Of a stretch of DNA of 64,000 nucleotides, positions 14,071 to 63,301 are shown one piece after another. Every line of letters starts with the position of its first letter. The first letter of the stretch is position 1. Source of the stretch: a virus; the IMG/VR virus record IMGVR_UViG_3300030108_002876, positions 1 to 64,000 of that record; one strand, given 5' to 3'. A model generated the notes under the pieces. That model saw only the letters and a list, made by a program, of their open reading frames with translations, made no database searches and had not been told where the DNA came from. Position numbers and translations under genes: made by a program.

Positions 14071-15114
14071 TTAAAAGATTACATAGTTTGCTCCACACTT
14101 AAAGTTGTACCACTCTCTGTTCCAGTACTTATAGTATCTACCTTCAAGAAATACACCTATGTGTTTATTAAATCTGTGTCCGTATATTAAACCAGCTGAG
14201 TAGTCAAGCCACTGACCACCTACTGTATTGTGATACATATATTCACCTCCAGTGTCGTAATGGTAGGGTAAAACATTTCCCCATGTGTGGAACCAGAAGT
14301 CGTCTGTAAAGTGATAGAAGTCGAAGCCGGCAACCACCGAGTAATTCCATTGACGAGAGAGTTCACTTCTTTTTCTAGTAGTATATTCAGATAAGATGTT
14401 AGGGATAGTGACTGCTTCCCAGACTTCAGTGTTTGTTGCAACGACTGTTCCGTCAGGAGCGAGGTACTCGCCTGTAACAAGGTTGTGTGAATATCCTTCT
14501 TCAATTGCGAGGTAAGTATAGTGTATGTCTCCTGTTGCCAACTTCCACTCTTCAAGTGGATCATACCCGTAAGGTTCTGAGATACGTTGTGCGATACCTG
14601 CGTGCAAAGAAAACTTGTTACCGAGCTTAAGTCTAAATCGTTGTGATCCCTCAAAGTACTCAATGTCTGCAAACCCGTCTTCAAGGTATTCAACCTTTGC
14701 CATAACTTTGTCTCCGATGTAACGAAAAAAGTGGTGCTGATTAAAGAACTCTTTACCTTGTTGTCTTTCGTATGTAACCTCTCCAAGAAACTCTATGCCG
14801 TTACGCTTACCTATATTAGCGTCAGCAGACCAAGATGTTTCTGATCCGTCATAAAAAGCATTAGCTCTGTTTTCATAACCAAACCTAGCGATCTTACGCA
14901 CACCCATAGATAAACTATAGTCAAATGGTGTTGCTATAGTCTCTTGAGTTAACCCGTCAGTAACAGAGTATATAGTTTGATCTGACACAGAGTTACCTCC
15001 GTTAACAGCTGCATAGAACGTAGAAAACTTAAATGCTTTCTTTAACTCTTGAGCATGTAGTACCGTACAGCTAAATAGTAAGGTTAGTAATAAACTTAAT
15101 CGTGGTAGTAACAT
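14071..15114 (-). CDS. Phage-encoded outer-membrane beta-barrel protein
   Basis: 347 residues. A clear signal peptide (PRLSLLLTLLFSCTVLHAQ) is followed by alternating polar/aromatic strands (YSLSMGVRKIARFGYENR, FRLKLGNKFSLHAGIAQ, YSAGLIYGHRFNKHIGVFLEGRYY in part). It ends in Phe (GANYVIF), the usual terminal aromatic of outer-membrane barrels recognised by BAM. Starts 19 bases inside the giant ORF. Could alter the host surface, for example to block superinfection, or be a receptor mimic; both are inference. Confidence 0.7.
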   Translation of the reverse strand: MLLPRLSLLLTLLFSCTVLHAQELKKAFKFSTFYAAVNGGNSVSDQTIYSVTDGLTQETIATPFDYSLSMGVRKIARFGYENRANAFYDGSETSWSADANIGKRNGIEFLGEVTYERQQGKEFFNQHHFFRYIGDKVMAKVEYLEDGFADIEYFEGSQRFRLKLGNKFSLHAGIAQRISEPYGYDPLEEWKLATGDIHYTYLAIEEGYSHNLVTGEYLAPDGTVVATNTEVWEAVTIPNILSEYTTRKRSELSRQWNYSVVAGFDFYHFTDDFWFHTWGNVLPYHYDTGGEYMYHNTVGGQWLDYSAGLIYGHRFNKHIGVFLEGRYYKYWNREWYNFKCGANYVIF

Positions 15115-18100: not shown

Positions 18101-21100
18101 CATCTTTACGTTCTTTATTTACTCTGTTCCAATTATCTATAGTAATACCAGCATCACCGCCAATACTAACGCCTGTAGACAACATGCTAAGTTCAAGATC
18201 AAACCCAGCTGCTAGTAGCTGTGGACCATAGTATCTACCAAGTGGCGACATGTCTGATGTTTGCCAATAAGGAACAGTTGACTTGTAAAAAAGATTTACA
18301 ATATCATCGTACTTTTTAGGCAAATAAGCTAACCTATAGTTGTCCATAGTTTGGTCAAACTGTGTTTTCTGATCAGCATTACCAGTCGCTATATACCTTA
18401 ACGCTTGTAAATTTACTTGCAGCGCTGGAGTCATATGCTCTAATGTAGCGCCAAGCATTATTGGGTTTCCTTTTGAGTCAAGCTTTGGAGTACCATCTCT
18501 ATTTAAAGCAGGTTCTAACTTGAAAGGTTTAGTAGGTGCGAAATCAAATATAGCAGAAGATCTAGTTAAACCTTGTTGACTAGAATTTAACGTTTCTAGT
18601 ATTTGAGTAGCTTGAGCAAGACTAATTTCCTTGCTGTCAACCATTGATCTAAGCTCTTCAACTATTTGCCTAAACGCTTTATTGTTTTCTTGTTGAGCTT
18701 TTACTATAGCATCTTTATTGTTTACGTGTTTTTTTACTTGATCGTAACTAAAGTTACCGTCCATGTAATTAGAAGGCGGTCTAGAATAATCTCCTATTTC
18801 ACCTTTTACAGCGCCAAGTAATTTTCTAGTGTCTTCTCTACCGTCTGTAAAAAAGCCTCTTTTACGAGATGATGCTGCTGCTAAACCTGGCACTAAAAAT
18901 CTTTCATTAAATTCAGCGCCGTATTTTTCTGCTAGTTTTTGACCTAATTTACTAGCACCTGCTCTAGCTTTTTCAACGTCTAAAGGATTAGAAAGATCTA
19001 ATACATTATTCTCACCAACAACTGTTGTATAATACTGTCTGTGAGTAGTAATTTCATTAACTATATGACCTTGTATTATTTGACTTAAAGGCTGTTTTAA
19101 TATTCCAACATTAACGCTTACATCTTTAACAGGTTTAAAACCACTAAACTCATCATACACTTGTTGTAGCTCACTACCTATTTTAGCAAATCTTCTAGTT
19201 ATTAAAGAAACCTCTTTCTTGCCAGCTCTACCAAACTGTTCTATAGCAAGAGCTCTAATATCTTCATCAGTAAACAAGTTATTAAAAGCTCCTTGTATAT
19301 TACCAGTAACATCTTCAATCATTTGAAGACCTTCTTCACTTTGTATTTTATTTAACACAGCTTGACCAATAGTAGAGTATTCACTTTGCAACTTATTAGC
19401 AGTTTTAGAATACAAAGTCTTCGACTTACCGTCTTCAAAAGTAAAACCTTGACCTTTGCCTTGTTCTATTAAAGCTTCTTTAGCAGCTTGATTAGTCATA
19501 GCTTTACCTGTCTGATCAATTAAAGCTTTAATTCTAGCACTAGTATTACGATCACTTACATTAGGTTGACCAGCTGGCGTTACACCAAAAGTTTCTAAAA
19601 ACTCTTGCTTTGTTATATTATCACGTTTTAATTGAGCTGCTAAACCTGCTTTACTACCTGTTTTAGATGCAGATACTCTACCACCTTTTTCATAAAACGG
19701 CTCCAATAATACTTTATTAACACCTGTAGATTTACCTGAAGTATCGGTACCTTCTGGTAACATAGCAATCAATGTGTCAGCATGCTTCATAATAAAAGCT
19801 TGTGCGTTTTTAACGTCACCTTTAGTTAAATTACCAGGCTTTGGAACAACGCCAAACATAGTTTGAACCTGATCAGACACAGCATTACCTAGTGTTTTAT
19901 AAGTTTTATTATCTGTATTGATAGCACCACGTTTTACCTGTTGTTTAGTGTCGTCATGTATCTTCTGGCCTCTTTCACCGAACCTATCAGCTAGTCTTAT
20001 GCCTTCACGAGTTCTACTTACAACTTCTGGTTCTGCGGCCGCTTCAGCAGCTACGCCTCTAGCTTCGGTTACGTCATCTTCAAACTCTGTCTTTAATATT
20101 CTATTAGCAGCTTCAATAGCTCTTCTGTCTAAGAACTTATTAATATAAGCAGCAATAGGTACTCCAGGGTTTGCGTCTTGATCATACTCTAATATCATAT
20201 CAAGTATACCTCTACGCCCAGTATTTATTTCGTCAGTAAGTAACTGTCTGTCAAAGCCTGGTACGTCTTGATATTTATTAACAAGCTTGTTTACTCTACC
20301 ACCAAACTCATCTATAATATCCATTGCAGCGCCAACGCCTTGATCTTCGTATAGAGTTTGTACACGTTCAGATGCCTCTTGTCCAGACCTTGAAAATCTC
20401 TTTTTACTAGTCTCTCCATCAAGCGTGCCTTCAATTCTACTTTTTGTAAGCTTTGAAACTTCACCGTTTCTAAACGCTTCAATATTACTTACCATAAAAT
20501 TAAGCGCGTCTTTACTGTTGTTTATCGTAAAGCCTTTACCTGTAGCCATTCTGTACCAGTTGCGTAAACTAGTTCTACCAGCGGCTTTTTTAGCAGCGTT
20601 AAACTCACTCTTGAAGTACTTATTACCAAGTATATCTTGAACAGACTTTGTATATTCGTCGTAATACTCTTGACTACCTTGTTCAAGATTTAACGCATTA
20701 ACCCTGTCTCTAGCAGTTTGATCTACCCATCTAAGATTTTTATCGCCATTTAAACCTGTCATTAGTTTTCTAGCAAAGTTTTCCATCTGACCCTCAGCGT
20801 TCATACCGCTTAATACGTCTATAGCGTGAGTACTTTCGTGAAGAACTACTGTGCCTTGGAGTATTTCTCCTTTATCTAAAGCGTCTTGGACTTGCTGTGT
20901 GTTAGCTATGGTTATATACTTACCACCAGGAAGTAAGGCACCAAACTCAACGCCATCTTCAGTTGAAGACTTAAACATATCTTGCGTGTCGTCTCTAAGC
21001 GCGTCGTACTCGTCTTGAGTAATATTGCCATTGTCAAACTCTTGCTTAATTTTTGCCATTAAGTCTTCGTTAGAGTCTGCTTGTATCACCTCAAAGTTAC

Positions 21101-24100
21101 CAGCAACGCTTGGATCTGCTAGTATAGCTTCGAGTGAAACGTTACCTTCACGTGCTTGCATGGTAGTCCACCCTTTGCGAACTTGAAGTTCAGTACCATA
21201 CCTATCTAATATAGCATCTTCTGCTTTACGGTTTCTGTTTTTTCTACCGCTTTCGCTAAACTTACCTCCATAAACCTGTAGCTCTACAAACTCCATCAAC
21301 TTCTCGTCTTTACGATGTGAGTTTACTCTATTGTTTCTAGCTTTACGCTGCATTTCAGTGTGAACAGCAACCGCTTTTTCTCTGTTAGACAACTGATCCC
21401 AACCAGATTTTTTAGATAGCTTGTCTTGTACTTTTAAACCTTCTTCGCCATATACATCTTCTACCACGTTACCGTCTTCGTAAGCTTGAGCAACTTCGGC
21501 ATGCGTTTTACTAATTCTATTATTAGCGCTAGATAACCTTTGATCAAAAGATTTTAAATCACCACCGCTCAGTGTAGCTCTATATTTTTTTAGTTTTTTA
21601 TCTATTGTAGCTTGCGAATCAGATCCTGTAATACCAGCTTCTTGGTGTATTTTTAATAAAGCTTTATTAGCTTCTAGTGTAGTTTTTAAGGTCTTTGAAC
21701 CACCAACTAAAACATCAAGCTCTAAACCGGCTTGCAAATTAGACAGTCTACCTACCTCTTGAAGATAATCTATTTTAAGAGCTTCTCTCTCAGCTGGTGT
21801 TGCGGCTCTTTCCATACTAGCTGTGATCATGTCTAGATTCGTCATTACATCATTGTAAACCGCTCTAGTGTCACTAGTCGCCATTGTAGAAGTAAACGCG
21901 TTATATACGTTACCAGCACCTTGAGTTGGGCCAGCTGATATAATAGAAGAGAAAACTACATCAAGAGCGCCAGAGTAATCTGCGTCTTGGCCTAGTATTA
22001 AACTACCAGCCATTTGATCTCCAAAGAATATTAAGCCTTCTTCAAGAACTTCACTACCAGTTTCTTTAGCAGTAGCAAGAACACCTCTGCCTACGTTTTG
22101 ATACCACGTATTAGTTGCAGTTCTAAGGACATCATCAACCTCACCTCCAAAAGCTTTTAATAATTTTTGAGAGTTTATAGCCGTACCAAAAAACGTAGTT
22201 ACACCACCTTCAATAACAAGAGCTGAAGCCATAGCTGTATACAGTTCTGTATCATCTATATCTCCAAGAGCAATGGTTTTTTCTAACTCTCCTTTTTGCA
22301 CTAAGTACTCGGCCATTGATATGTCGCCGCGCTCACGTTGAGCTTCTAAAGCGGTAAGCTGCTTTTGAGCTTCTTCTCCAGCAGAACGCATATCATATAT
22401 CTGCTTTTTCTTTTGGCCTGCAGATCCAGTTCCAAAAATACCAAAACCAGTGGTCGCTGAGCTTCCGTATTTTATAACGTTAGCTGACGCTCCAAGCGCT
22501 TTCAAACCACTAGATGTTACACCACCTGTACCGACAGCTACAAGTAGGTTTGGTAATTGTTGAGTAAACGTTCTAGACGCATACTCACCTTTCTGACCAA
22601 TATCCCAAGCTTCACTAGCAGTAAGCATAGTTCTGTAAGCACCTGCTCTGTCATCTATTCTTTGCAAGCCCGCTATACCTTCTTCGCTACCAAAAAAAGC
22701 CGTAGTACCCCACCACATGCCCTTCCAAGCGTCCATCCAGTCTTTCCACCTTTTATCATGATCATCAAATTCTTTTGAAACAGTATTAAGCACAGCTGCA
22801 TTGTCTTGAGTTTCGTTAACAAACTCTAGATATTTAAGCATCTCACCTCTAAGGCCATTCATATAGTCTGAATTTATAGTCTCGTATTGACGATATAGGT
22901 TGTCAACTTTCTTCTGAAATACTTTGCGATCTTCTTCACTGCCATCTTCTGGCATATCTATTACAAATCTGAACGTACCTTCTTCAACATTACCCTCAGA
23001 GTGATAGCCATATCCTGCTTTAGCAACATCAGCTAAAGTGCCATTAATAGTTGTAGCTAAACTATCGCTCTTCTGCTTTAAATGGTTTTCAATAGTAGAC
23101 TGTCTAGCGCTAAAAGCGTTGATCTTAGCTTGTATGTTGTGAGGTGCTGTTTTTTCGTCTATAACACCTCTTACTATATTAGCGTTTGAAGAATTTGATA
23201 TCTCTCTTTCAATCAATATGCTTCTACGTCGATCAACTTGTTCATCTACAACAGATCCTACTATAATGTTTACCATATCAGAACCTGCTGTCAATGAATT
23301 TCTAACTGCTTCTTGACCTTCAAGTGATAAGTTCTTGTACATGTCAGACTCAAGCACACCGTCAAGTCTTTGCTTTTGCCAATCTGAAGCCAGTGTTTTT
23401 TCAGTATATGTTTTTTTATAGCCCTTTACCCATTTCTCTTTCTTTGTTGTGTAGTATATAGGTTCGTTAAAATATTTTGCTATTGTAGTTATTTCTTCTT
23501 CTGGCAAGTTTGAGTCTTCTAGTACAGTTCTAATCACATCAAACGTTAGAACGTTATTGTCTTTAAGAGCTAAACTAATAGCCGTTGCACTGTACTCTGT
23601 TTCATCTATGTCAAATGTTGATGGATCATCACGAGTAACAATATATTTATCTTCAAAAGCGGAAAGCTCAGCGTTAATACCATTAAGTACTTCGGCTTCT
23701 CTTTCAACCATGTACTCTCTTGACTTTTGCAAAAAGTTTACGGTAGGATTGCCTTTATCATCATAGCCAAATCCGTTTTCTTCATGAAAATCTTTTGCCA
23801 AGTTCCAAAAATAGTTTTGTACTTCACCACTACTTACGCCAGCGTAATTATTGTTCATCGTACCACCAATTTCATTGGCTTCATTTTCACCTAAAGGGTT
23901 AGAATTATAGTCTTCAAAATCTTCAGGCGCTCCTCCTAAAACAACTTCGCCGTCTTTTAATACTCTATACCCTCTTATAATTACTCCTCTTCTTCCTTTT
24001 TGTTGGTTATATCTACTACCAGAATATTGATCAAGCATATATTCACCTTGCAAATTTTTTCTCATTACTTGCACAGGATAAATTGGTTCAATAGTATATC

Positions 24101-25130
24101 CAGAAGCACTAAGCGCTTCGTTCATACCTTCAATATCATTAAATTGATAGGCGTATTCTTCACCCGCTTGCGCTTTAGACGTGCCAAATGGATTTTCAGA
24201 AGCCCCAAATGCTGGGTCTGCGTTACCACTATCTTTTCTTTCAAACAAAGACCATATAGGATTAGATGCTATTTTACTGTTATCACCAGTATTATACCAT
24301 TCTGCAATATTATCTACAGCTGTATCTACATGTGTTTCATCTTCATCTGATATTACTGAATACCCACCGTTTGGCTTAAATACAACAGCATGTTCGTTGC
24401 CAAATCTATTAACATTAGTGTGACTTGCTTGCAAGTTGGGAAAAGCTGCAGTACCTTTAAAATCTCCAGCTATAGTAGAAGAAGAGTAGTTAAACTCACC
24501 TTGATACTCTCGTTTAATATTAGTTTTAAGGTCTTTAGTAAATTTATCTTCAATACCTTCAAACATACCTGGCTGATCCGCTTCATCGCCTTCAGTATAA
24601 TCAGCGTCAACTTTATCTACAAACTCGTTATACTCAGGAAACATTTCTTTAGCTATCGTGTTAGCTACGTCTCCTGAAGTCTGTGTCCAACTTGGCGCAC
24701 CTACTTTTTTAGTGTAGTATATACCGTTTTCTCTTTTGTATTCATATCCATCTCCTCTATCTGAAATAATTTTAGGTGCATCTTGCGGCTCTTCAGTTAC
24801 AACTTCTTCTTCTTGCCTTTGTTCTTCAATTATAACTTCTTCTTCACTACTAATATCTGTATCTACTTGATCATCATCTTCTTGCTCCAACAAAGATTCG
24901 TCTGTACTCACTTCCGTAGTAGACTGTAAAGCGTCTGATTGCCCTTGAGTCGTTGACTCTCCGCTTGGGCTTGGCTGAGAGTCTTGATCTTTTTTTACCT
25001 GCTCGTCATCTTTGTACTGCTTTACAAAAGCCATTATGTCAGTCTTAGCTTGTTCGCTTAACACACCGTTATTAGCAGCTTTCGCGGCATCAATCTTTTC
25101 TTGAACAAGAAGTTCTAGTTCTGGATTCAT
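15096..25130 (-). CDS. Giant polyvalent internal virion protein with protease-like and HAD-like modules
   Basis: 3344 residues, the largest ORF here. Residues 1-130 are acidic and low complexity. A hydrophobic/Gly-rich region near 860-1080 (VAVGTGGVTSSG, LEEGLIFFGDQMAGS) resembles membrane-active parts of ejected proteins. HESTH at about 1431-1435 is a zincin HExxH motif. From about 2382, WDFDDTLARTKS and later DIAFADDALQNV form a HAD-type phosphatase module. The C-terminal third has segments common to phage polyvalent proteins (FFNARSAMLQMISNVNFINW, GKWILAFQNTPMQ). The last 75 residues carry two Cys/His zinc knuckles (SGKRCSNK...CTIH; NGKRCKMK...CYYH). Probably ejected with DNA, as T7 gp16 is. 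Confidence 0.75.
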   Translation of the reverse strand: MNPELELLVQEKIDAAKAANNGVLSEQAKTDIMAFVKQYKDDEQVKKDQDSQPSPSGESTTQGQSDALQSTTEVSTDESLLEQEDDDQVDTDISSEEEVIIEEQRQEEEVVTEEPQDAPKIISDRGDGYEYKRENGIYYTKKVGAPSWTQTSGDVANTIAKEMFPEYNEFVDKVDADYTEGDEADQPGMFEGIEDKFTKDLKTNIKREYQGEFNYSSSTIAGDFKGTAAFPNLQASHTNVNRFGNEHAVVFKPNGGYSVISDEDETHVDTAVDNIAEWYNTGDNSKIASNPIWSLFERKDSGNADPAFGASENPFGTSKAQAGEEYAYQFNDIEGMNEALSASGYTIEPIYPVQVMRKNLQGEYMLDQYSGSRYNQQKGRRGVIIRGYRVLKDGEVVLGGAPEDFEDYNSNPLGENEANEIGGTMNNNYAGVSSGEVQNYFWNLAKDFHEENGFGYDDKGNPTVNFLQKSREYMVEREAEVLNGINAELSAFEDKYIVTRDDPSTFDIDETEYSATAISLALKDNNVLTFDVIRTVLEDSNLPEEEITTIAKYFNEPIYYTTKKEKWVKGYKKTYTEKTLASDWQKQRLDGVLESDMYKNLSLEGQEAVRNSLTAGSDMVNIIVGSVVDEQVDRRRSILIEREISNSSNANIVRGVIDEKTAPHNIQAKINAFSARQSTIENHLKQKSDSLATTINGTLADVAKAGYGYHSEGNVEEGTFRFVIDMPEDGSEEDRKVFQKKVDNLYRQYETINSDYMNGLRGEMLKYLEFVNETQDNAAVLNTVSKEFDDHDKRWKDWMDAWKGMWWGTTAFFGSEEGIAGLQRIDDRAGAYRTMLTASEAWDIGQKGEYASRTFTQQLPNLLVAVGTGGVTSSGLKALGASANVIKYGSSATTGFGIFGTGSAGQKKKQIYDMRSAGEEAQKQLTALEAQRERGDISMAEYLVQKGELEKTIALGDIDDTELYTAMASALVIEGGVTTFFGTAINSQKLLKAFGGEVDDVLRTATNTWYQNVGRGVLATAKETGSEVLEEGLIFFGDQMAGSLILGQDADYSGALDVVFSSIISAGPTQGAGNVYNAFTSTMATSDTRAVYNDVMTNLDMITASMERAATPAEREALKIDYLQEVGRLSNLQAGLELDVLVGGSKTLKTTLEANKALLKIHQEAGITGSDSQATIDKKLKKYRATLSGGDLKSFDQRLSSANNRISKTHAEVAQAYEDGNVVEDVYGEEGLKVQDKLSKKSGWDQLSNREKAVAVHTEMQRKARNNRVNSHRKDEKLMEFVELQVYGGKFSESGRKNRNRKAEDAILDRYGTELQVRKGWTTMQAREGNVSLEAILADPSVAGNFEVIQADSNEDLMAKIKQEFDNGNITQDEYDALRDDTQDMFKSSTEDGVEFGALLPGGKYITIANTQQVQDALDKGEILQGTVVLHESTHAIDVLSGMNAEGQMENFARKLMTGLNGDKNLRWVDQTARDRVNALNLEQGSQEYYDEYTKSVQDILGNKYFKSEFNAAKKAAGRTSLRNWYRMATGKGFTINNSKDALNFMVSNIEAFRNGEVSKLTKSRIEGTLDGETSKKRFSRSGQEASERVQTLYEDQGVGAAMDIIDEFGGRVNKLVNKYQDVPGFDRQLLTDEINTGRRGILDMILEYDQDANPGVPIAAYINKFLDRRAIEAANRILKTEFEDDVTEARGVAAEAAAEPEVVSRTREGIRLADRFGERGQKIHDDTKQQVKRGAINTDNKTYKTLGNAVSDQVQTMFGVVPKPGNLTKGDVKNAQAFIMKHADTLIAMLPEGTDTSGKSTGVNKVLLEPFYEKGGRVSASKTGSKAGLAAQLKRDNITKQEFLETFGVTPAGQPNVSDRNTSARIKALIDQTGKAMTNQAAKEALIEQGKGQGFTFEDGKSKTLYSKTANKLQSEYSTIGQAVLNKIQSEEGLQMIEDVTGNIQGAFNNLFTDEDIRALAIEQFGRAGKKEVSLITRRFAKIGSELQQVYDEFSGFKPVKDVSVNVGILKQPLSQIIQGHIVNEITTHRQYYTTVVGENNVLDLSNPLDVEKARAGASKLGQKLAEKYGAEFNERFLVPGLAAASSRKRGFFTDGREDTRKLLGAVKGEIGDYSRPPSNYMDGNFSYDQVKKHVNNKDAIVKAQQENNKAFRQIVEELRSMVDSKEISLAQATQILETLNSSQQGLTRSSAIFDFAPTKPFKLEPALNRDGTPKLDSKGNPIMLGATLEHMTPALQVNLQALRYIATGNADQKTQFDQTMDNYRLAYLPKKYDDIVNLFYKSTVPYWQTSDMSPLGRYYGPQLLAAGFDLELSMLSTGVSIGGDAGITIDNWNRVNKERKDALGPLGGNDVGTIEQTRSNAKKANKEKSLYSRTGKKKGMTAWDFDDTLARTKSNVIFNKDGETKIVSAEDFATQGADLVAEGWVPDFSEFNKVTGGTPGPFFDKAMRRAKKYGTQDTFILTARAPESAPAIKEFLDSLGLNIPIENITGLGNSTGEAKARWLLDKHAQGYNDIAFADDALQNVEAVRKVFDEFDIKGKVEQAKTLFSRSAPARVSEIIGQGEADLNADLNIILEETKDVDRKKKFSPAKAKQRGKNKGKFKFFLPPSAEDFKGLMYPMLGKGQIGEQHHQWFKENLFDPYSNGMRRLNALQQETSGDLRALKRTHKDVKSKLKRKVPGTEFTYEQAIRVFNWNRNGVEVPGLSQADLNKLTKAVKADPQLTSFANGLEQILDKAEATVEPGDNWLGGTISMDIMETIDASRETLLQEWNNNVDVIFSEQNLNKLEAVFGSNYREALEDSIYRMKTGSTRNFGSNRLVNGFTQWLNGSIGTTMFFNARSAMLQMISNVNFINWSDNNLLAAGKAFANQKQYWTDVSMIFNSDFLKQRRAGIGTDLNAAELLKELQGSKNPMKTAISYLLQLGFTPTQAADSLAIATGGATMYRNRLNTYLEQGMSQQEAETKAFQDMREVAEETQQSTRPDKISQQQASPLGKWILAFQNTPMQYNRIIKRAAQDLINGRGDNRANISKIIYYGAVQSAIFYGLQSALFSVMFGDDEEEDDLDVKKERVVNGMVDSLLRGAGIGGAVVATVKNVIIEHLEQKAKEDDDVYMTEYNETDVLIEALNLSPPVGIKARKLVSGMRTWEYNQDVIDYMPKTDLDNPIYDASFAATEAVTNVPLSRLYNKVQNIRAALDSENETYKRVAMFLGWSRWSFGIQNQDVLGAKRELKEIKAEEAEERREQKKQEREAEKQAANEAVIQGHIDEQQEQRDNNVAEEEIQCAAVTRSGKRCSNKVLPGETYCTIHQEVPQQANEVQCSHIKSNGKRCKMKTKNKSGKCYYHD

Positions 25131-27460: not shown

Positions 27461-27844
27461 CTATTCAATACTTCCGTAGCCACTACTATCTGAAGATTCT
27501 AAGTTAACAGCAAACAGCTCGGCTTCTACTGTAGATGTATTAACCATTTTTACATTAGCATGATAACCAAGTAGTGTGCTTAGATTAGCTTTATTGTCTT
27601 TACTAAACAACACGTATTTACTTACACCATTGTTACCAGCAAAAGGTAGTATTGTTTCACATATAACTACTGGGGAGTTACTCTGCCCGTTAGTTATTTG
27701 CCGTATTTGACCTATTTCAACTACGTTATTATTACCGTTAGTTGTAAAACCGCCGTCACTACCTGTGTCTACATAGTATGCAGTATCTCCAACTTGGCAA
27801 GATACGTTTAGTGGCTGTGAAAATGTTAATGTTATTGATGGCAT
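27461..27844 (-). CDS. Hypothetical beta-rich virion-associated protein
   Basis: 127 residues beginning MPSITLTFSQPLNVSC, mostly short beta segments (GDTAYYVDTGSDGGF, VVICETILPF, VKMVNTSTVEAELFAV). Its start touches the stop of the giant tail protein, so it is translated with it. Possibly a tail accessory. No family recognised. Confidence 0.65.
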   Translation of the reverse strand: MPSITLTFSQPLNVSCQVGDTAYYVDTGSDGGFTTNGNNNVVEIGQIRQITNGQSNSPVVICETILPFAGNNGVSKYVLFSKDNKANLSTLLGYHANVKMVNTSTVEAELFAVNLESSDSSGYGSIE

Positions 27845-30800
27845 TAGCTTACTGTTATTATGTCGTCGATATAAACTTCGTGTGAAAGAGTATTATCAAT
27901 ATCGCCAACTCTTAAATTACCTGTTATTACTATATTGTCTCCTACTTTCGTAGCTTCAGCGCTAATTATACTAACGTCTGTATTAGTAACTGTATTAGAT
28001 AATGGGTGTGAAAACGTTAAAAAGTCGTCGTCAGAAAGTGTTACATCTGTGTCAACAACTATTCTAGTTGCACTAGTAATGCTAGCCACTTTTACAGCTA
28101 CGTTGCCTATGCTAGTGTCGTGCGTTACGTCCATACCTACAGCTATACCTCTAGTGCTATTAAGATCTATAACCTTAGCATTACTAACCGCACCGTTTAC
28201 TTGCTGACGAACAGAAGTAGTAAACCCTGATATTTTTTCAGTAACGTCTACGCTACCAGTAACATTAAGCGTGTTACTATTAGGTAGTATAGTTAAAGAA
28301 AACCCTACGCAAGAAGTATTATCTTCTATGAACTTAATATCAGCGCCACTTGCAACGCTGACTGCAGCGCTTAGTATAACAGCGTTTTCTCTTACGCTAG
28401 TTACTGTAACGCCTGCGCCAACACCTGTACCTACAACTTTCATGCCACTTACAACTCTATTTAAGTTCTTGTGATTTTTAAGAAGTATTCTGTTAGTGGT
28501 TGAAGCTGCTGATGTTTGAATGCTTGTAGAATAATAAGGAGCTGTTACATAGTCGTCGTCCTCGTATCTTGTAGGGCGTTTAATAGTTTGTGTTGGTAAA
28601 GTACCAAAGTTACCGGCTGTATCCGTTACAGGTTGTAGAGTAATTGTTTTAATACCGTGCTGTATAATAGACTTGTCACCGTCTTTAGTTGGAACTCTAG
28701 AATCTAACGTAGCTACACCACCGCTAATAGTAACAGGATATATGATTACATCGTATCTAGTATTATCAGTTACTTGAGGCAATAAAACTCTATGTATTTT
28801 CTTTTTACCGCTAGGTATTGTAGCTTCAAAATTAGTATTATCGTTAACGTCTGTTATAAAATTGTGGTTTACAAAATCATATCTACTAACTGTAGTAGCA
28901 TCTGTTTCGCTGGTCTTCTTTAATAAAGATATTTTATATTTTGTATCAGCTTTACCTTTTACTGTTATAGGATAAAAACCTCCTGTGTAAGGCAGCTTTT
29001 GATCTACAATAACGTCTGTTATTCTGTGTGTAAAACCATCTGTAGGCTCTACAGATATAACATCGTAGTTTATAAATGCGAGATGCTTTTGCTGGCAGAA
29101 ACCAATTTCAGCTGGAGGATCTGCTAATAGCGGATCTTCTGGAGGAGTATATGATATTTCTACAACAATGCCAGTAGTTTGAGAGTTGCTAGTGGTTTCC
29201 GTTATTGAAGAAGAATAATAACCTTCGTAACCCAAGATACCTAGTTGGTAGTGAGCAAGCTCGTTAAACGAAACGCTTATATTTTGCAAATAATAGCCAG
29301 TGCTAGCGTTAATGGTATACTTAGCAATAACGGTACTAGTATTACTTTGTACTGTGCCAGTGTGCTGGCCTGTAAACAAATTAGGGTCAGATGCAGGAGA
29401 AACATCACTTTCAGTTATATTAGCAAGATCAGCATAAGGAGTGCCAAGAGTAACTCCAGTTTGTTCTACAATATTAACTTTTAAGCAAACGTCTCTATCG
29501 ACTGATTGACTAACTGTACCATCAATGTCTACGTATATAGTATTATTATTTGTTGGTGTGTAGCTATTTAAATGTACTCTAGCACGAACTGTATTATCGT
29601 ACTCACCTACTGTGCCAAGATCTGAGAATACTACTTTTGCCACAGGTGTATCAACATTACCACCAGTGTATTCGTTTGTAGCTGTTAAAGAACCGCTTCC
29701 TATAGTAAAGTCACTAGCTTGTATAAAGTAACCTTCAGCATTGTTTGCGCTTATCACTAAGTCTACTGTTTGAGCAGATTCAGCTGTACCAGTTACTATT
29801 TCAAAAGTATTAGATGACACAGTAAAACCTACGTCATCAGTTGAATCCCAAGCACTACCGGTACCGTCAGCGCCAACATAACTATTAGAAGTATTGTTAG
29901 CAACAGTAACCGTCATAGTTTCACCTAGACCGCTAGTGTCGTGTGCAAAGCTAGCAGTACCTAAACCTTGCACAGAAAACTCATGTTCATCTAAATTAGA
30001 TAGCGTGGTTGTTTCACCACATATAGCGCCATAGTATTTACCTTCTCTATTTATAAACTCTATTTCTCCACTAGTTTGAAGATCAGTAGTTATGATTTCA
30101 GTATACCAACCTGCAGTACCTGCGCTATCAGCTCCTGGTCCACCTAAGTTGTAATACTCTCCGTCTGTTATTGAGCTATTAGTCTCAAGCCCGCTGTTTG
30201 AACTATAGTTACCTGTTAACCAAGAGCTGCTGCTTTCAGTATCAAAGTTTGTTATTCTAGCGTTTGTGCCTTCGTAGCTTATAGAGTTAAATGTTTTAAC
30301 TGATTGAGGGAAAGCATTAAAAGGTATGTTTACCGTAGAAGTATATTGAACTCCATAGAAATTATTTCTAGGAACAACAGCTTCTGAATCGTCTAACTCT
30401 ACGTGATGCTCGTATAAATGACCTAAGTTAAAAGTAAAAAACTTATTGTTTAAACTTATACCTTTTTCTGGTATGTAAGATCTAAAGCTTGTCCAGCCAC
30501 CTGTCGACTCTGCAAATGCTAATGTAGTTTGTTCATAAGGTCGAACAAAAGCTGAAGCACCGTAGTTAAAGTGATATTTATTTATACCAAGGTTGTACTC
30601 TCTTTTACTTTCGTCGTACATGCCTATGCATCTAAATACTCCTTCTCTAAATGAGTCGCGGAAATAGTCAATCATACCGACATTGGAAATAGATGTTATA
30701 CCTTCAGTAGTTAACTGCAATACGTGACCACGAGCAGTGTCTGTGAAGTAAATTCTATATGGCGTTACTGCTATAGACTCTGGATTAGTTGCAACTCCGT

Positions 30801-33800
30801 AATCTCCTTGGTAAGCTGTCGCAGCACCTATAACTGCATTAGTAGCTACAACCTGTGGTTTTCCATCAGAATTAAATAAAAGGTCTTTATTAGTTTCTGC
30901 TCTAAGTACTCTATCTTCGCAGAATACAACTAACCTACTTTCTTTATTAACTAAAGCTTGTATAGATCCATGGCCTGGATTTAAATCTTTAGTTATGTCT
31001 TCACCAATTATAAATTGATTTAAAGCGTTTTGTTTTGATACAGAATTATAAACACCAGACCAAATCATAGAGTGTTTTCTAACTTCAGCTTTGTTAGCTC
31101 CAGCGGCTACAGCGGACGCTTTAACGCCGTTAGATATTGTTTCTGCATTAAAATCATCGCGTATTCTATCAGACTCTACTCCATTTCCAAACGCAAAACA
31201 ATTAGACCAATTTAAAGTATGTTTCTTTGTCCATAGCTCTGCACCGACAACGTCTTCACCTCTCATACCATGTACTGTAAGCTGAGTAGCACCAGCCGCT
31301 ACAGTGCCGTTTACTTTTATTTCAGCGCTAGATGTATCTGGTTTATTTATAGTTAATATATCTCCGTCTGTTATTGGAGTTAACGCGCTTAATCCAGTTG
31401 TTCCAGCAGTTTGAGAAAAGTTTACAGTATTGTCGTTAGCCCAGCTACTAATAGTATATTCAACTGTTCCTATAGTAAATGTAGAACCTAAAGGTATAAC
31501 TTTTTCTTTAGTATCTTTTTCTAAATATAAAGGATTTTTGTTACTAGCTTCCCAATAAATATCTAATTCAACTTGCTCTCTTGGCTCTGTCTCCCATATA
31601 GCAGGATTCTCAGCATAGACCGCACGTCCTCTTGGATCAGTATACTGCTCTACTATCTCTATAACATCTTGATTTGTTCCATCATGACGCAAGCCTGCAA
31701 CTTGGGTGTCAGCGTTGGCTGAAGTACCACGCATAGGATTATATCCACTAATACCGCTACCTATAGGTGGGTTAACCATTATCGTCCAGCGCTGTCTTAA
31801 ATTTGCGCCTCTATACTGATTCTTCTTGTTACCTGTAGCATAATTTCTTATACCAAAAGCGCCTGTATGTATATTTGTTCCATGCTTCCAATACGTACCT
31901 GCTCCTGTACTGTATCCAAATTCAGGGTAATTTGCAAACGACTCAACTGTGTAAACTGTTTCGTCTGGATCATTTTGAAACCTAAACATACAACCGGGCT
32001 CTACTAGTTCTCTTATAAACCTAGCAGCAGCTTCATAGTTATCTCCATTAACATCTTCTAGTTGGTGAGGAAATGGTTTATCACCCCAATTACTACCATT
32101 ATATCCTGTACCCATACCTGTCCACGATATATCCATACACTTGCCACCGTTCCATATACCTCTACTAGGCATACCATGATTACTCTTCATGTTACCTGTA
32201 ATGTTGTCGTTTCCGTTCCAAGATGGCGCACCTTCTGGTTTATCTTGAGCGTCTGGCTCAACTGCCCAGTTACCATACGCGTCTTGGTTTTGGCCAACTG
32301 CTATACCCATAAAGTTACCTTGAAATAAATTACCTCCAAAATAACCTCCTGGTCTATTACCAGTTCTACCAGACCATGAATATGCAGTGCATGCATCTAT
32401 AAAAAAGTCTTGACGACCAGCCATTGTGGTCCAAAAATCTTCAGCTCTACCAGCGCCACCAAATCCACCTGCTGATGCGTTTTTATCGTTAACAGCTCGT
32501 ATAGGATCTGCGTGCGGTCTTTCATTTTTAACTTCAGTACCCTCGTTACTCTCACCTGGTACACCACCTTCTGATTGATTACCCCACCAATAACCAGTAT
32601 GGTGGCTATAAGCAGCCTGGTTTTTTGACATGCTTTCGCCTGGCTGATTGTATATCTTAAAAGTATCGCCGCCGTTTATCGAGTGCTTAAAGTGAGTTCC
32701 ATCACTAAGCTGATAAACATAGTTATCACCACCTCCCCACTCTTTAGCGTCTTCGGGTATTTCACCTAAATAACCAGCCGTACTAGCTCCAGCGTTAGGA
32801 TCAAATGCGTTCCAATAACCGTTGTTGTTTATATATCTAAGACCCCAGTTTGCTTTAACACGGTACTGACCATCACCAGCTCGTAAAACGTATTGATCTA
32901 AAACACTATCTCTTAATATTTTTACAAAAAACCTACCATCATACTCAGGTCTATTAACTACTTTGTATTCATATATATCAAAGAAAAGATAATCAACTCT
33001 AGTAGCATATGTATCAGCAGTAGAAGTTATTAATATGTCTTCATTAAACTTACCAGCAATTTTAATTTTATAATCATCACTTTCATCAGGTCCAAGCTTA
33101 GTTATTTTAGCTATCTCGTATTCCTCTGATTCATCAGGTCCAGCAAAAAACTTAATAGTCATTCTGTCAGGAGTTCTCAACCACTCATCAGTGTCTCCAA
33201 ATACATCTTCAAACGCGCTTGCAGTCACTAATATATATGTTTGATCTTCCAGTGGATAACCTCTAGTAGCGTTACCTATATCATCGTCATCATTATAAAA
33301 CCTACCTAGAGTATTGATGTCAGTTTTTATATAGTCTGGAGCGTCATTTTCTATAGCTATTACTTTGTACCTAGCTTTGTCATGAACGTATTCGTCACTT
33401 CCATGACCTTTTTTAAGAGTCAAGTAATCTTCTGTATCTAGTTTATTTCTATCAGCAGAAGGAAACGATATCCAAATATTACCATCTTCAGCAAAGTACC
33501 ATCTATCCATGGCTAAGTTGTAATACTCTGAAGACGTTTCTTTTACATAGTAAGAATAATACTTAGCCCAAGAAGGTACGTAAGTTCCTTCGTTAAATTT
33601 AACAGTAAGCTTGTTTTGGGTATGTGACTGATCTTTCTCTACCCTTGTAGTTGCGAAACCATCGAAGTCACTAGACGTTAGTACAGGCGTTTCTCTACCG
33701 TACTTATCACTAAACACAACGCCTAACTGATACGTTCGTATTGATTTAACAGAGCTTAATCCAAACTCAGAGTCAGCAATAGATGTAGAGCTATATCCTA

Positions 33801-35739
33801 CTGTAAAGCGAGGCTCTTGTAATACATTGTATCCTAAAGTAAAGTTTCCGTATATAAGTCTATTAGCTGAAATTTCTTGCGCTACAGCTTTAACAGGTAC
33901 AGAGTCTTGAGTTCTTATTAATTGATTACTAGGTAAAAGCTGATGCAGTAAATCTGTTTTAAGAGAATATTCTCCTCTAGCATTATTATCATAGTAAAAA
34001 TCATTTTCAATAGCAGGCCAAGCTGGGTGACCGTCTTGTTTTGTAATTGTTTTTACTATATATACAGGAGGCTTTTTATCTTCTTTGTAAAGTATATCTA
34101 TAGCAGTTACATCTTCTGGAAAACAATCTTCTTCTGCGTAGTAATTTTTAAGAACGAGCCTTCTTATTTGATTAGTCATGGCTAAGTTGTAACCATCTTT
34201 ATTTCTATACCTAAACTCACCTGGTAAAAAAGCTATGCGTGACCAAGGAGCAAATGTAGAATATTCGCCATCCTCGTATTTATATCTATACGAAAATCTA
34301 GGAAACTGTAATTCAAATAAAGGATCTGGCTTTTCCAATCTAACAAACCAGCTTGTATCGTTTTGATCTATAACTGATGAAATAGAAAGTACTAATAAAT
34401 CAAAACCAGTTGAAGATAAGTTGTCAGCATCAATAACATTGGATGCTACAACTTCACATCTCATTTGATAATCTAAAAAGTTTTCTTCGTCATCAGTATC
34501 TACTTGCGCTGTAAATAACAATATGTCACCAACTCTAAAATCAACAGGCTCTGTAAAACTAAACGCTGATGAAGGTATAACATCGTCTGCGCTATATACT
34601 GATAAATCTAAACCAAGCACTTCTGTGCTCGATGGGTTTGCAACAGACTCTCCAGTAGGTATTCTATCTTCAAGATCTCTAAACATATCTATGTCTAGAG
34701 CTTTTTTAGGAGCTTTTTTAATAACAGTTACGTGTTGTTCTTCTACGTATGCAACTCTTCTAGAATCTCTTCTAAGAACTATTTGTTGGCTAGTCTCGTA
34801 CTGTCCAACTTCTTCAACAAGTCGTGTGTGAAAATATCTATTGTTACCAATAAATGTTTCAGGTGTAGGATCGCCTAAAGCATAGCCATTTACACCAGCG
34901 CCTTTAAGGTACTCAGTACCGCCAGTACCCAACTTTGACCTTTCTATATGTATTCTTTTAGGTTCAGTATGCCCGTCTGTCCAGTATATATAACCTTCAT
35001 GTACGTTAATAGCGTTAATAAGAATTTCCGGATCAAACTTTAAAACGCTATCAGCTACAAAAAAAATTGTATTGTTTTGTTGAGGAGCTGTAGGTGGAGT
35101 AAAGCTAACTCCGTTTTGTTCTAAAAATATTTTAAAACGATCGTTGCCAGTATCATACACAATATCTGAAACAAATACCTCGTTACCAGTTCCGTAGAAA
35201 GTTCCATTCATAGTGCCAGATAATCTCATACCTATTCTAATTCCAGTGGAATTAAACGTTTCTCCATTAGCAGATATGTATATAAAATTATCTAATGTAG
35301 TGCTACTTGCAATAAGCTTGTATTGTATTTGATATATGTCTACAAAAATATGACTAACAATATTATCTTGAGTATTGTATCTTAAGATGTGATTTATACT
35401 TCTACGACCAACATCAGCATCTGCGGGATCTCCAGTTCTTTGATTTACAAACCAATATACTGATTCTGTATTTTTATCTGCTACAGTACCTACACATGTG
35501 CAATGTTCGGTTACCGGTGTTGGATTACTAACAAGCCCGTAGTTTCCGTCAATATGCGGATTAGCCATACGTCTATGGGTAGTGTTACCTAATAAAGTCT
35601 GCAGTGTTCCTACCTCTGATGTATCAGACGTGCCAACTTGAACATTTAAAGCATCGGTATATTGACCATCAGGAACAAGTCTTTCATCAAGATCTTTATT
35701 CATCTGCCCCTGGGCAAAGCTACGTTTTAATTCTGCCAT
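27844..35739 (-). CDS. Giant tail protein, tail-nozzle/stabilisation type with C-terminal Ig-like repeats
   Basis: 2631 residues. The N-terminus (FAQGQMNKDLDERLVPDGQYTDALNVQ in part, then VGTLQTLLGN) matches the opening of podovirus tail nozzle/stabilisation proteins of the T7 gp12/P22 gp10 kind. A long middle contains Trp/Gly-rich surface-like sequence (SWNGNDNITGNMKSN, IWNGGKCMDISW). The C-terminal 700 residues are Ser/Thr/Val-rich beta repeats of Ig/cadherin type (TVTVANNTSNSYV, DVTEKISGFTTSV). Fusion of a nozzle with an adhesin-like stalk suggests receptor contact. Length is several times that of T7 gp12. Confidence 0.75.
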   Translation of the reverse strand: MAELKRSFAQGQMNKDLDERLVPDGQYTDALNVQVGTSDTSEVGTLQTLLGNTTHRRMANPHIDGNYGLVSNPTPVTEHCTCVGTVADKNTESVYWFVNQRTGDPADADVGRRSINHILRYNTQDNIVSHIFVDIYQIQYKLIASSTTLDNFIYISANGETFNSTGIRIGMRLSGTMNGTFYGTGNEVFVSDIVYDTGNDRFKIFLEQNGVSFTPPTAPQQNNTIFFVADSVLKFDPEILINAINVHEGYIYWTDGHTEPKRIHIERSKLGTGGTEYLKGAGVNGYALGDPTPETFIGNNRYFHTRLVEEVGQYETSQQIVLRRDSRRVAYVEEQHVTVIKKAPKKALDIDMFRDLEDRIPTGESVANPSSTEVLGLDLSVYSADDVIPSSAFSFTEPVDFRVGDILLFTAQVDTDDEENFLDYQMRCEVVASNVIDADNLSSTGFDLLVLSISSVIDQNDTSWFVRLEKPDPLFELQFPRFSYRYKYEDGEYSTFAPWSRIAFLPGEFRYRNKDGYNLAMTNQIRRLVLKNYYAEEDCFPEDVTAIDILYKEDKKPPVYIVKTITKQDGHPAWPAIENDFYYDNNARGEYSLKTDLLHQLLPSNQLIRTQDSVPVKAVAQEISANRLIYGNFTLGYNVLQEPRFTVGYSSTSIADSEFGLSSVKSIRTYQLGVVFSDKYGRETPVLTSSDFDGFATTRVEKDQSHTQNKLTVKFNEGTYVPSWAKYYSYYVKETSSEYYNLAMDRWYFAEDGNIWISFPSADRNKLDTEDYLTLKKGHGSDEYVHDKARYKVIAIENDAPDYIKTDINTLGRFYNDDDDIGNATRGYPLEDQTYILVTASAFEDVFGDTDEWLRTPDRMTIKFFAGPDESEEYEIAKITKLGPDESDDYKIKIAGKFNEDILITSTADTYATRVDYLFFDIYEYKVVNRPEYDGRFFVKILRDSVLDQYVLRAGDGQYRVKANWGLRYINNNGYWNAFDPNAGASTAGYLGEIPEDAKEWGGGDNYVYQLSDGTHFKHSINGGDTFKIYNQPGESMSKNQAAYSHHTGYWWGNQSEGGVPGESNEGTEVKNERPHADPIRAVNDKNASAGGFGGAGRAEDFWTTMAGRQDFFIDACTAYSWSGRTGNRPGGYFGGNLFQGNFMGIAVGQNQDAYGNWAVEPDAQDKPEGAPSWNGNDNITGNMKSNHGMPSRGIWNGGKCMDISWTGMGTGYNGSNWGDKPFPHQLEDVNGDNYEAAARFIRELVEPGCMFRFQNDPDETVYTVESFANYPEFGYSTGAGTYWKHGTNIHTGAFGIRNYATGNKKNQYRGANLRQRWTIMVNPPIGSGISGYNPMRGTSANADTQVAGLRHDGTNQDVIEIVEQYTDPRGRAVYAENPAIWETEPREQVELDIYWEASNKNPLYLEKDTKEKVIPLGSTFTIGTVEYTISSWANDNTVNFSQTAGTTGLSALTPITDGDILTINKPDTSSAEIKVNGTVAAGATQLTVHGMRGEDVVGAELWTKKHTLNWSNCFAFGNGVESDRIRDDFNAETISNGVKASAVAAGANKAEVRKHSMIWSGVYNSVSKQNALNQFIIGEDITKDLNPGHGSIQALVNKESRLVVFCEDRVLRAETNKDLLFNSDGKPQVVATNAVIGAATAYQGDYGVATNPESIAVTPYRIYFTDTARGHVLQLTTEGITSISNVGMIDYFRDSFREGVFRCIGMYDESKREYNLGINKYHFNYGASAFVRPYEQTTLAFAESTGGWTSFRSYIPEKGISLNNKFFTFNLGHLYEHHVELDDSEAVVPRNNFYGVQYTSTVNIPFNAFPQSVKTFNSISYEGTNARITNFDTESSSSWLTGNYSSNSGLETNSSITDGEYYNLGGPGADSAGTAGWYTEIITTDLQTSGEIEFINREGKYYGAICGETTTLSNLDEHEFSVQGLGTASFAHDTSGLGETMTVTVANNTSNSYVGADGTGSAWDSTDDVGFTVSSNTFEIVTGTAESAQTVDLVISANNAEGYFIQASDFTIGSGSLTATNEYTGGNVDTPVAKVVFSDLGTVGEYDNTVRARVHLNSYTPTNNNTIYVDIDGTVSQSVDRDVCLKVNIVEQTGVTLGTPYADLANITESDVSPASDPNLFTGQHTGTVQSNTSTVIAKYTINASTGYYLQNISVSFNELAHYQLGILGYEGYYSSSITETTSNSQTTGIVVEISYTPPEDPLLADPPAEIGFCQQKHLAFINYDVISVEPTDGFTHRITDVIVDQKLPYTGGFYPITVKGKADTKYKISLLKKTSETDATTVSRYDFVNHNFITDVNDNTNFEATIPSGKKKIHRVLLPQVTDNTRYDVIIYPVTISGGVATLDSRVPTKDGDKSIIQHGIKTITLQPVTDTAGNFGTLPTQTIKRPTRYEDDDYVTAPYYSTSIQTSAASTTNRILLKNHKNLNRVVSGMKVVGTGVGAGVTVTSVRENAVILSAAVSVASGADIKFIEDNTSCVGFSLTILPNSNTLNVTGSVDVTEKISGFTTSVRQQVNGAVSNAKVIDLNSTRGIAVGMDVTHDTSIGNVAVKVASITSATRIVVDTDVTLSDDDFLTFSHPLSNTVTNTDVSIISAEATKVGDNIVITGNLRVGDIDNTLSHEVYIDDIITVS

Positions 35740-54902: not shown

Positions 54903-55310
54903 TTATAGTTCCATTGCTCCGGTACTTGATTCTTCGTAGCCTTGTTCAAATAGTTTTCTTTCTTTTTTTCTTTTTGCACCTTTTGCTAACGCTATACCCC
55001 CACCTATTACCGCTGCTGCAGCTAGAGCTATCCAGCCTACTGGGTTACTTACGCCTATAGCTGCTGCTCCTTTAGCACCTAGACCTAGCGAAGCTGACTT
55101 ACCTATAGCATATCCTGCTCCTGCTGCTGTCTTTGCTTTTCCGCCTAGGCCAAACGTATTCTTTATATCTGATGTTACGTTCTCTTTTCTTTGTGCTTTT
55201 AGTTCTTCTGGGTTTTGAGATAAAGGTGCACCACTAGAGTCAACATACTTCATTGGAGAGCATGATGATCTTCTACGTCTTTGTCCGTGCATAATTCTTC
55301 TTTTACCCAT
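54903..55310 (-). CDS. First gene of the minus arm, basic N-terminus with membrane segment
   Basis: Start taken at 55310 (MGKRRIMHGQRRRRSSCSPM), since the ATG at 55328 is not needed and the basic head is shared in style with other virion proteins. 135 residues. The SPM motif occurs at about 18. A Gly/Ala-rich segment (KTAAGAGYAIGKSASLGLG, WIALAAAAVIGGGIALAKG) forms one membrane span. The C-terminus is basic then acidic. Possibly a virion membrane-puncturing or holin-like peptide. Confidence 0.65.
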   Translation of the reverse strand: MGKRRIMHGQRRRRSSCSPMKYVDSSGAPLSQNPEELKAQRKENVTSDIKNTFGLGGKAKTAAGAGYAIGKSASLGLGAKGAAAIGVSNPVGWIALAAAAVIGGGIALAKGAKRKKERKLFEQGYEESSTGAMEL

Positions 55311-55328
55311 AAGTATAGTATTACACAC

Positions 55329-55510
55329 TTAATCTGCTATTTACAAAGTGTGACACAAGCCTACTACTAGGATACTATTAACTAGCTATTGTCATACTTT
55401 TTTGGGATATTATAAATTTTGGAGTAAAATGTAGCCCCCCTCCCCCGCCCCCTCCCCCCTGCCAGGAAAAGTCGCGACTCTAAGCCAGCCCCGCCTCTTA
55501 TTTTTACACT
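55329..55510. other. Divergent intergenic region with G-quadruplex tract
   Basis: 182 bases between the two arms with no ORF. Contains the C6-T-C5-G-C5-T-C6 tract (55435-55459), GCCAGGAAAA, and the perfect 10-base palindrome AGTCGCGACT (55470-55479), followed by CCCCGCC. The rest is AT-rich. Candidate replication or transcription start region (see findings). The Bacteroidota promoter pair TTTG/TAnnTTTG was not found at proper spacing. Confidence 0.7.
55435..55459 (-). promoter_or_regulatory. Potential G-quadruplex with single-base loops
   Basis: Minus strand reads GGGGGG-A-GGGGG-C-GGGGG-A-GGGGGG. Four G-runs of 5-6 with three one-base loops, the most stable parallel quadruplex type known. 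The opposite strand could form an i-motif. Very unusual in a genome this AT-rich. Confidence 0.85.
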
Positions 55511-55549
55511 TTACAAACTAAATACGACTTCACTTGGATAATATATATG
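55511..55549 (+). promoter_or_regulatory. Bipartite element, copy 1
   Basis: ACAAACTAAATACGA (55513-55527), spacer CTTCACTT, GGATAAT (55536-55542), then ATATATG which is followed by TAA; the actual gene start is at 55574. See findings for the seven-copy family. Confidence 0.85.
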
Positions 55550-61922: not shown

Positions 61923-62546
61923 ATGTCACAGTATGAAAGAAACTTAGAGCTGTTAAATAAAAGGCGTGTAGTGTATCGTAGACTACCTATAACAGATGTA
62001 CCTGATATAGAAAACGATATGTACATGTTCTTTGAAAACGGCACGTATCAATGCTACGATCTATTTAAAAGTACAGCAAAGATAACTACGTATAAGTCTC
62101 TGAAGTGGCATTTGCTTGTTATATGGTATTTAAACCCAGGCATAGATCAAGATGAGTTTATGGATATAGCACTTGATATATCTGCTAAAACAAACGGCTA
62201 TGTTAGTTTTAATGTACCACCTAACTTATTGAACAAGATTGTTTATGAAGTTAGTATGCTTGATCTTATAGAGCCGCCGAAGAATAAACTACGTAAAGTT
62301 ATATTCAAGTTGCATTGTGGTCTAGCAAAAGATGAAAAGCTACGCATTGTAGGTCAGCTTATTGGTAGATCAAATAAAACGCATCCTGATGACGTTTATC
62401 AAGCTATGATAGATATACATGACTTAGGCCAAAAGATTACAATTAAACGTATCTCTAACGTCTTACATGTATCATCTCGAACTGTACATAGGTATATGTG
62501 CGAAGACTTGAAACGTGAAAAAGAATTATTAAATAAACAACTATGA
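61923..62546 (+). CDS. HTH-containing regulatory protein
   Basis: 207 residues. The C-terminal ITIKRISNVLHVSSRTVHRYM is a helix-turn-helix (recognition helix SSRTVHRYM) like MerR/ANTAR-style or terminase-type HTH. N-terminal part has a helical domain (LKWHLLVIWYLNPGIDQDEF, LRKVIFKLHCGLAKDEKL). It is co-transcribed with and overlaps the sigma-like gene; the pair probably resets transcription. Could also be a replication initiator. Confidence 0.65.
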   Translation: MSQYERNLELLNKRRVVYRRLPITDVPDIENDMYMFFENGTYQCYDLFKSTAKITTYKSLKWHLLVIWYLNPGIDQDEFMDIALDISAKTNGYVSFNVPPNLLNKIVYEVSMLDLIEPPKNKLRKVIFKLHCGLAKDEKLRIVGQLIGRSNKTHPDDVYQAMIDIHDLGQKITIKRISNVLHVSSRTVHRYMCEDLKREKELLNKQL

Positions 62547-63301
62547 AATGTTATAATGTACAAAACTACATACGCTATAAAAAAGATATAAAGCAATGGA
62601 GTAAACGTGTAGACTGGTGTAGGCCATGGGACGAGATGACTCGTGATGAGCTTATAGTTAAGTTTATGCCTCTTGCAGAAAACCTAGCGCGTAAGTTTTC
62701 AACTACGCAACAAGCTAGCGGTGTAATGACTATCAACGATCTTATACAAGAAGGTAATAAAAACTTAGTTATTGCTGCAGATAAAATAGCTTGGGATACT
62801 ATATATGAAGCTGAAGACCCAGAGCAAAGGCTTAAATCATTTTTATCAAAGCGAATTAAAGGTGGTATACGTAGGGCTATAGATATAATGCGTGGCACTA
62901 TGCGTATACCAGAACATAAGATTAACGAGATACGTAAAAACGAAGGTAAAGATCGTGATGCAGTAGAAATGTTTTTCAACTCTGTATTTCAAAGTCTTGA
63001 TGCTATGGTAGACGATACAACTAATATGTATGACGTACCTGAGCCAGTGCAGACTTACAACCCTGAGCTGTTAGCTTCATATCTTATTAGTCTATTGCAA
63101 ATACACCTAGATCCAAGAGAGTTTGATGTAGTAGTATATAGCTACGGTATTAATTGTGATAAGCTATCTGCTAAACAAATTGCAGCTAAACTTGATATTA
63201 AAGGCGACAGTGCTTACGTACGTGTATCACAGTTAAAACGTCAAGCTATTGACAAGCTTGTTGACAATGTAGATTACTCGCAAGTGGTTGACTTTCTGTA
63301 A
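62543..63301 (+). CDS. Sigma-70-like RNA polymerase factor
   Basis: 252 residues. Region 2: LIVKFMPLAENLARKFSTT, MTINDLIQEGNKNLVIAADK, KSFLSKRIKGGIRRAIDIM (promoter -10 recognition helix), then MRIPEHKINEIRKNEG. Region 4: LDPREFDVVVYSYGINCDKL, SAKQIAAKLDIKGDSAYVRV and QLKRQAIDKLVDNV, the -35 HTH. A phage factor that would redirect host RNA polymerase to phage promoters. Overlaps the HTH gene by 4 bases. Confidence 0.8.
   Translation: MKCYNVQNYIRYKKDIKQWSKRVDWCRPWDEMTRDELIVKFMPLAENLARKFSTTQQASGVMTINDLIQEGNKNLVIAADKIAWDTIYEAEDPEQRLKSFLSKRIKGGIRRAIDIMRGTMRIPEHKINEIRKNEGKDRDAVEMFFNSVFQSLDAMVDDTTNMYDVPEPVQTYNPELLASYLISLLQIHLDPREFDVVVYSYGINCDKLSAKQIAAKLDIKGDSAYVRVSQLKRQAIDKLVDNVDYSQVVDFL

Follow-up and report, generated by a model that had tools for sequence, protein, structure and literature searches.

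An extreme G-rich tract lies between the two divergently oriented gene arms of the viral record IMGVR_UViG_3300030108_002876 (IMG/VR), and the question raised by this locus is whether the G-quadruplex (G4) that the tract could form is itself the functional feature or whether the tract belongs to something larger. The analysis concerns the first 64,000 nucleotides of the record (the window) and, where indicated, the whole record of 65,509 bases. The first and the last 436 bases of the record overlap with 90% identity, in the primase gene region, and therefore the genome map is circular, with about 65.1 kb, the record ends being population variants joined in one record.

Regarding gene content, the left arm (minus strand) holds the structural genes and GroEL, together with two very large open reading frames (15096-25130 and 27844-35739, minus strand; 3344 and 2631 amino acids). 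The right arm (plus strand) runs across the record ends and encodes ligase, a sigma-70-like factor, Erf, an ExoVIII-like protein, primase-helicase, thymidylate synthase, MazG, and RNR. The terminase, the portal, and one virion protein have matches among the head and packaging PHROGs, TerL being about 46% identical to that of the Flavobacterium elemo phages, and no recognisable DNA polymerase family is found among the proteins scanned. The sigma-70-like factor (62543-63301, plus strand; PHROG 351, Pfam region 4) was detected in 11 of the 25 family records examined for it, a set with many fragments.

The G-rich tract and its surroundings

On the minus strand, positions 55435-55459 have the sequence G6AG5CG5AG6 (GGGGGGAGGGGGCGGGGGAGGGGGG; plus strand, CCCCCCTCCCCCGCCCCCTCCCCCC), with three loops of one nucleotide and with run lengths as assembled in the record. 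This corresponds to the canonical sequence pattern of an intramolecular G4, the fold being predicted from the motif. It is the only strict G4 motif in the window (four runs of at least three G, loops of 1-7 nt), where just one other run of five or more G or C occurs. Moreover, no second match is observed in the whole record at up to two mismatches, nor in the window at up to three, and the expectation from 100 dinucleotide-preserving shuffles is 0.00. Sequence, mismatch scans, and shuffles agree with the original prediction of a real and extreme tract between both arms. The divergent gap in which it was placed is noncoding, but its size has to be corrected from 182 to about 263 nt, measured from the left-arm ATG at 55310 (minus strand) to the ATG of a small right-arm open reading frame at 55574 (plus strand), a figure that varies with the choice of start codon. 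Also, the perfect palindrome described as adjoining the tract is present, and it is found at the same place in only one relative (L102). The features of the junction are as follows.

55308-55353, minus strand: left-arm promoter-like motif TCACACTTTGTAAATAGCAGATTAAGTGTGTAATACTATACTTATG (26.3 bits; TTAAAT...TATGTAATTATA)
55350-55396, minus strand: imperfect inverted repeat TATGACA...TGTCAC, clade-specific, between the core and the left promoter-like motif
55408-55496, minus strand: whole element, about 90 bases (upstream block, spacer, and core)
55408-55438, minus strand: 31-nt conserved core GGGGCTACATTTTACTCCAAAATTTATAATA, family pattern GGGGCWACACnnTACYCCWAWATTTATAATA
55435-55459, minus strand: G6AG5CG5AG6 tract, G4 motif, overlapping the variable spacer and the first four G of the core
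55439-55466, minus strand: variable spacer, 28 nt in the window, G-biased on the minus strand, of near-constant length
55467-55496, minus strand: upstream conserved block AGGCGGGGCTGGCTTAGAGTCGCGACTTTT, family pattern GGGGCYSGG...TTTT
55470-55479, no strand: perfect palindrome AGTCGCGACT within the upstream block, generally not conserved as a palindrome
55513-55543, plus strand: first right-arm promoter-like motif ACAAACTAAATACGA-N8-GGATAATA, seven copies in the genome

Comparable tracts occupy this place in relatives that were assembled separately, which makes an assembly error unlikely as the explanation for a feature of this type. In viral contigs that carry GroEL relatives, a G-rich tract is often present at the same position and on the same strand, and the concern that relatives might lack it there was not borne out.

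A single-copy element of two conserved blocks

The tract is part of a single-copy noncoding element at the divergent junction and not an isolated G4, since most of the element's spacer and the four G at the start of the core belong to it. The sequence between the two blocks is free while their spacing is near-fixed: TTT[TC] and CYCC are 41-42 nt apart in 83 of the 104 distinct members, a number that rises to 93 if 40-43 nt are allowed. The end of the core is AT-rich, and three of its columns are invariant in 70 of 70 members. In the window the core occurs once, with 42.1 bits versus 1.6 for the runner-up site, and in the nine sources scanned it is likewise single in each one (36-45 bits, next best at most 4.7). 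Judged from the sequences, conservation concerns the two blocks on either side, the almost fixed distance between them, and a G bias confined to one strand. The element behaves as an independent unit, because the distance from the core to the left-arm motif varies between clades and the flanking promoter region also differs between them.

The element is distinct from both sets of promoter-like motifs that surround it. Weaker copies of the left-arm motif are found directly before genes at 63302 (plus strand), 27470, and 14111 (both minus strand), constituting a candidate middle or late promoter class; for the copies at 27470 and 14111 the scores do not exceed those of the best shuffled sites, and support comes from their position at a gene start. 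On the right arm, ACAAACTAAATACGA-N8-RGATAATA is present at 55513, 55914, 56534, 56975, 58180, 59055, and 60253, always on the plus strand. This motif precedes right-arm genes in five to eight copies in most near-complete relatives, and it could be an early promoter; it is also seen in a 129.5-kb contig (L359), and in L322 it sits directly after a tRNA-like 3' end. Regarding the inverted repeat, its arms change together (GTGACA/TGTCAC to GGACA/TGTCC), and 48 pattern matches were obtained, the one in L118 looking like a chance match. In L094, L102, and L103, the palindrome GATATTAGTCCCTAATATC is inserted beside it.

Distribution of the element

Neither a query with a 175-residue left-arm protein nor a scan with the exact tract returned relatives. 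A profile built from the GroEL relatives gave 58 loci, located at the start of the left arm, and the profile together with later pattern scans gave 155 loci with 124 distinct blocks. Another 62 loci with the element were reached through the right-arm promoter motif, in part within records included in the previous count. Thus, the element is found once per genome, at the divergent junction, in more than 100 related marine phages, a family of uncultivated phages seen in environmental contigs only. The exact core pattern has no match in bacterial or archaeal genome contigs, and among cultivated relatives no copy was found in Panino, in elemo at 1-40 kb, in phi38:1 at 24-72.5 kb, or in the stretches of Gundel covered. 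This signal of about 90 bases is previously undescribed.

One diverged candidate was obtained in a sister phage. In this environmental phage, MW202828.1 (Caudoviricetes sp. ctfjg026, with a TerL 64% identical to that of the window), the best genome-wide site of a two-block gapped model is that genome's own divergent junction (9.3 bits), in the same strand sense and with a 27-nt spacer that has no G4 and shows a GCCG/CGGC hairpin instead of G-richness. In this case, ten mononucleotide shuffles reached a maximum of 2.1 bits, a lenient control. Shuffles of other genomes reached 12.9, and therefore the match is suggestive rather than proven. Weak profile hits had been seen at the junctions of phi38:1, MW202828, and Panino (E 0.8-2.8), of which only that of MW202828 survived. 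The Gundel repeat and the Panino junction were discarded as counterparts because the two-block match is not significant, as was a C6 tract of elemo at 19336, which has the opposite strand sense and also lacks a significant match.

Conservation of the quadruplex and of the spacer

A strict G4 is present in 40 of the 112 members with full upstream sequence, and when this label is placed on a tree of 50 rows based on GroEL, it changes 12 times, with at least 10 of these changes forced by well-supported branches. This does not support the idea that the G4 itself is the conserved functional feature: the G4 is optional for the element, and the tract is not conserved as a quadruplex-forming sequence in the manner expected for a site like the conserved sequence block CSB II of mitochondria. 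The window is the G-rich extreme of a family-wide spacer, having the highest G4Hunter-type score (3.48) among the 71 members scored.

What is retained in the spacer is its composition on one strand. The mean content is 51% G and 11% C, and for 109 of the 112 members G exceeds C on the strand in the sense of the structural arm. A single short G run is all that many members have, and several low-G spacers present short palindromes or hairpins instead, such as CTGGGTACCAG in L189 and L091 and ATGACAT-TATGTCAT in L198. Spacer hairpins are modestly in excess (mean best stem of 3.72 versus 3.17), and for the G strand the computed folding energies hardly differ from chance (mean z of -0.38).

On these data we do not claim the element as a structured RNA, because Rfam returned no family in the window junction or in nine relatives, no covarying pairs support a core hairpin, and the fold energies are near chance. 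An eye-catching GGGG/CYCC hairpin was rejected, its paired cells being 67.9% versus 67.5% after column shuffling (z = 0.3). A swap from G-C to C-G at one pair (-12/-7) is observed in three members, too few to build on.

Possible functions of the element

The best reading of the element would be a lineage-specific nucleoprotein site for DNA processing, and the tract would then be the spacer of a cis-acting site for the phage's own DNA machinery, for which a replication origin is the leading, still tentative, candidate. Conservation, near-constant spacing, strand bias, single copy, independence from the promoters, and the position between divergent arms point in this direction, as do the presence of a primase-helicase gene and the lack of a recognisable polymerase among the scanned proteins. 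Also, a single-copy cis site accompanied by an A/T-rich stretch is what an origin would show. As a possible mechanism, one or more phage proteins would attach to the core and to the upstream block, which are separated by 41-42 bp or about four helical turns, and form one complex, and the AT-rich end of the core (AATATTTATAATA) would open. The G strand of the spacer, once single, would fold back, as a G4 here and as a short hairpin in some relatives, and this fold-back would hinder re-annealing and leave an entry for the phage primase-helicase. A bolder form of this proposal, in which strand-specific fold-back of the spacer opens the origin, sequence being free with length and G bias held, quadruplex and hairpin interchanging over evolution, and the CSB II region being a convergent counterpart, seems rather improbable as a whole.

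Several expected marks of an origin are not seen. The original prediction looked to an inflection of GC skew, and the skew does change sign at 55.4 and 6.2 kb, but it is no pointer to an origin because these are the arm boundaries where the gene strand changes, and skew at third positions has no clear break half a genome away. No iterons or initiator-binding repeats are seen in the junction, no known initiator gene was found, and the replication-initiator-like proteins of Panino and elemo are without counterpart in the window. The suggestion of an origin or packaging signal at this place may hold for the element, and is not supported for the G4 as its conserved functional part.

A packaging site comes second and is a possible but less probable role, in which the terminase would recognise the two blocks and packaging would start at the element, the ends of virion DNA, probably with short direct terminal repeats, being at or near the junction. 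Single copy and the near-fixed two-block geometry would fit this role. The portal and TerL of the window match, distantly (portal, 26%), those in records of the Tenacibaculum phage Gundel, whose 322-bp direct terminal repeats, predicted by PhageTerm and not experimentally verified, lie exactly in a divergent noncoding junction (PMC8776804), a parallel that favours a packaging role, although the element model does not match that repeat. Panino, the closest isolate, is described as linear DNA (PMC11590407), and the divergent junction is where its record starts, but it shows no terminal repeat. One contig of 61.6 kb (G025) opens at the tract. One of its ends falls within the G run and its counterpart 16 nt beyond the first promoter motif of the right arm; by comparison with relatives, no more than about 100 nt would be missing between them. 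On the other hand, the terminase gene is 10 kb from the element, contig breaks are spread over the G run and not at one base, and, of 16 long records, 7 have overlapping ends and represent circular maps opened at another place. A physical end exactly at the tract, one of the roles first suggested for it, finds no support in these two last observations. We infer replication rather than packaging and rank the origin first.

Control of transcription is an improbable third option. A regulator or the phage sigma factor bound here would govern the divergent promoters, or the core could serve as a promoter directed leftwards, with a -10-like TATAAT and GGCWAC 16 nt upstream. The location of the element between two sets of promoter-like motifs, the sigma-70-like gene, and the TATAAT within the core are in line with this. 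Nonetheless, promoter-like motifs recur while the core occurs once per source, a separate motif of the left arm lies closer to the first gene, and the distance between that motif and the core differs between clades.

A hybrid G4 or R-loop primer of the CSB II kind is very unlikely. Leftward RNA through the tract would form a stable hybrid and prime DNA synthesis at the A/T stretch, and the strand-specific G bias and the succession of a G-rich strand and an A/T stretch are indeed reminiscent of CSB II (PMC5027508). Against this, inspection and a motif scan recognised no leftward promoter upstream of the tract on the minus strand, many members have just one short G run, and such priming needs no near-fixed spacing of 41-42 nt. 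Least likely of all is a G run without function, drifting upwards in G and breaking assemblies, since, even if G4 capacity is gained and lost repeatedly and 9 of the 55 GroEL-selected contigs end within 100 nt of the element on its upstream, right-arm side, drift would give neither the G excess on one strand in nearly all members nor a near-constant spacer length. We read the contig breaks mainly as failures of assembly at the G run. In L103, the terminal 31 positions of the contig (1-31) are all G, apparently an artefact of sequencing or assembly at this site.

Comparison with known systems

The object of study is thus the two-block element, the G tract being its variable part, and a single-copy site of about 90 bp is a small and concrete target for finding the origin or the packaging signal of this family. 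More generally, an extreme G4 in a single genome can represent the tail end of a spacer shared by a whole family, in which quadruplex capacity is not conserved, and such G tracts break metagenome assemblies.

In the literature searched, origins based on a G4 are not described for tailed phages. Origins primed through R-loops, such as ColE1 and T4 oriF, have a G-rich zone beside an easily opened A/T zone. The phage element also has a G-rich zone adjoining an A/T zone, but it lacks an identified primer promoter and its geometry is near-fixed. In human mitochondria, a hybrid RNA-DNA G4 at CSB II terminates transcription, CSB II being a site of G4 termination and of replication priming (PMC5027508). 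In both cases, a noncoding control region contains a strand-specific G run broken by a single A, with an A/T stretch after it. However, CSB II is transcribed through, whereas no leftward promoter was identified upstream of the phage element, which moreover has a near-fixed spacer between two conserved blocks and in many members no G4.

Gundel (Pachyviridae) shares homologous portal and terminase proteins and a special site in the divergent noncoding junction, although the two-block element is not found in its repeat and the window record shows no terminal repeat. Finally, the junction of MW202828.1 differs in its hairpin-forming spacer and its much diverged core, but it is there that the best two-block match is located, with the same strand sense and a spacer of 27 nt. 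This one diverged copy suggests that the two-block geometry may be older than its G-richness.
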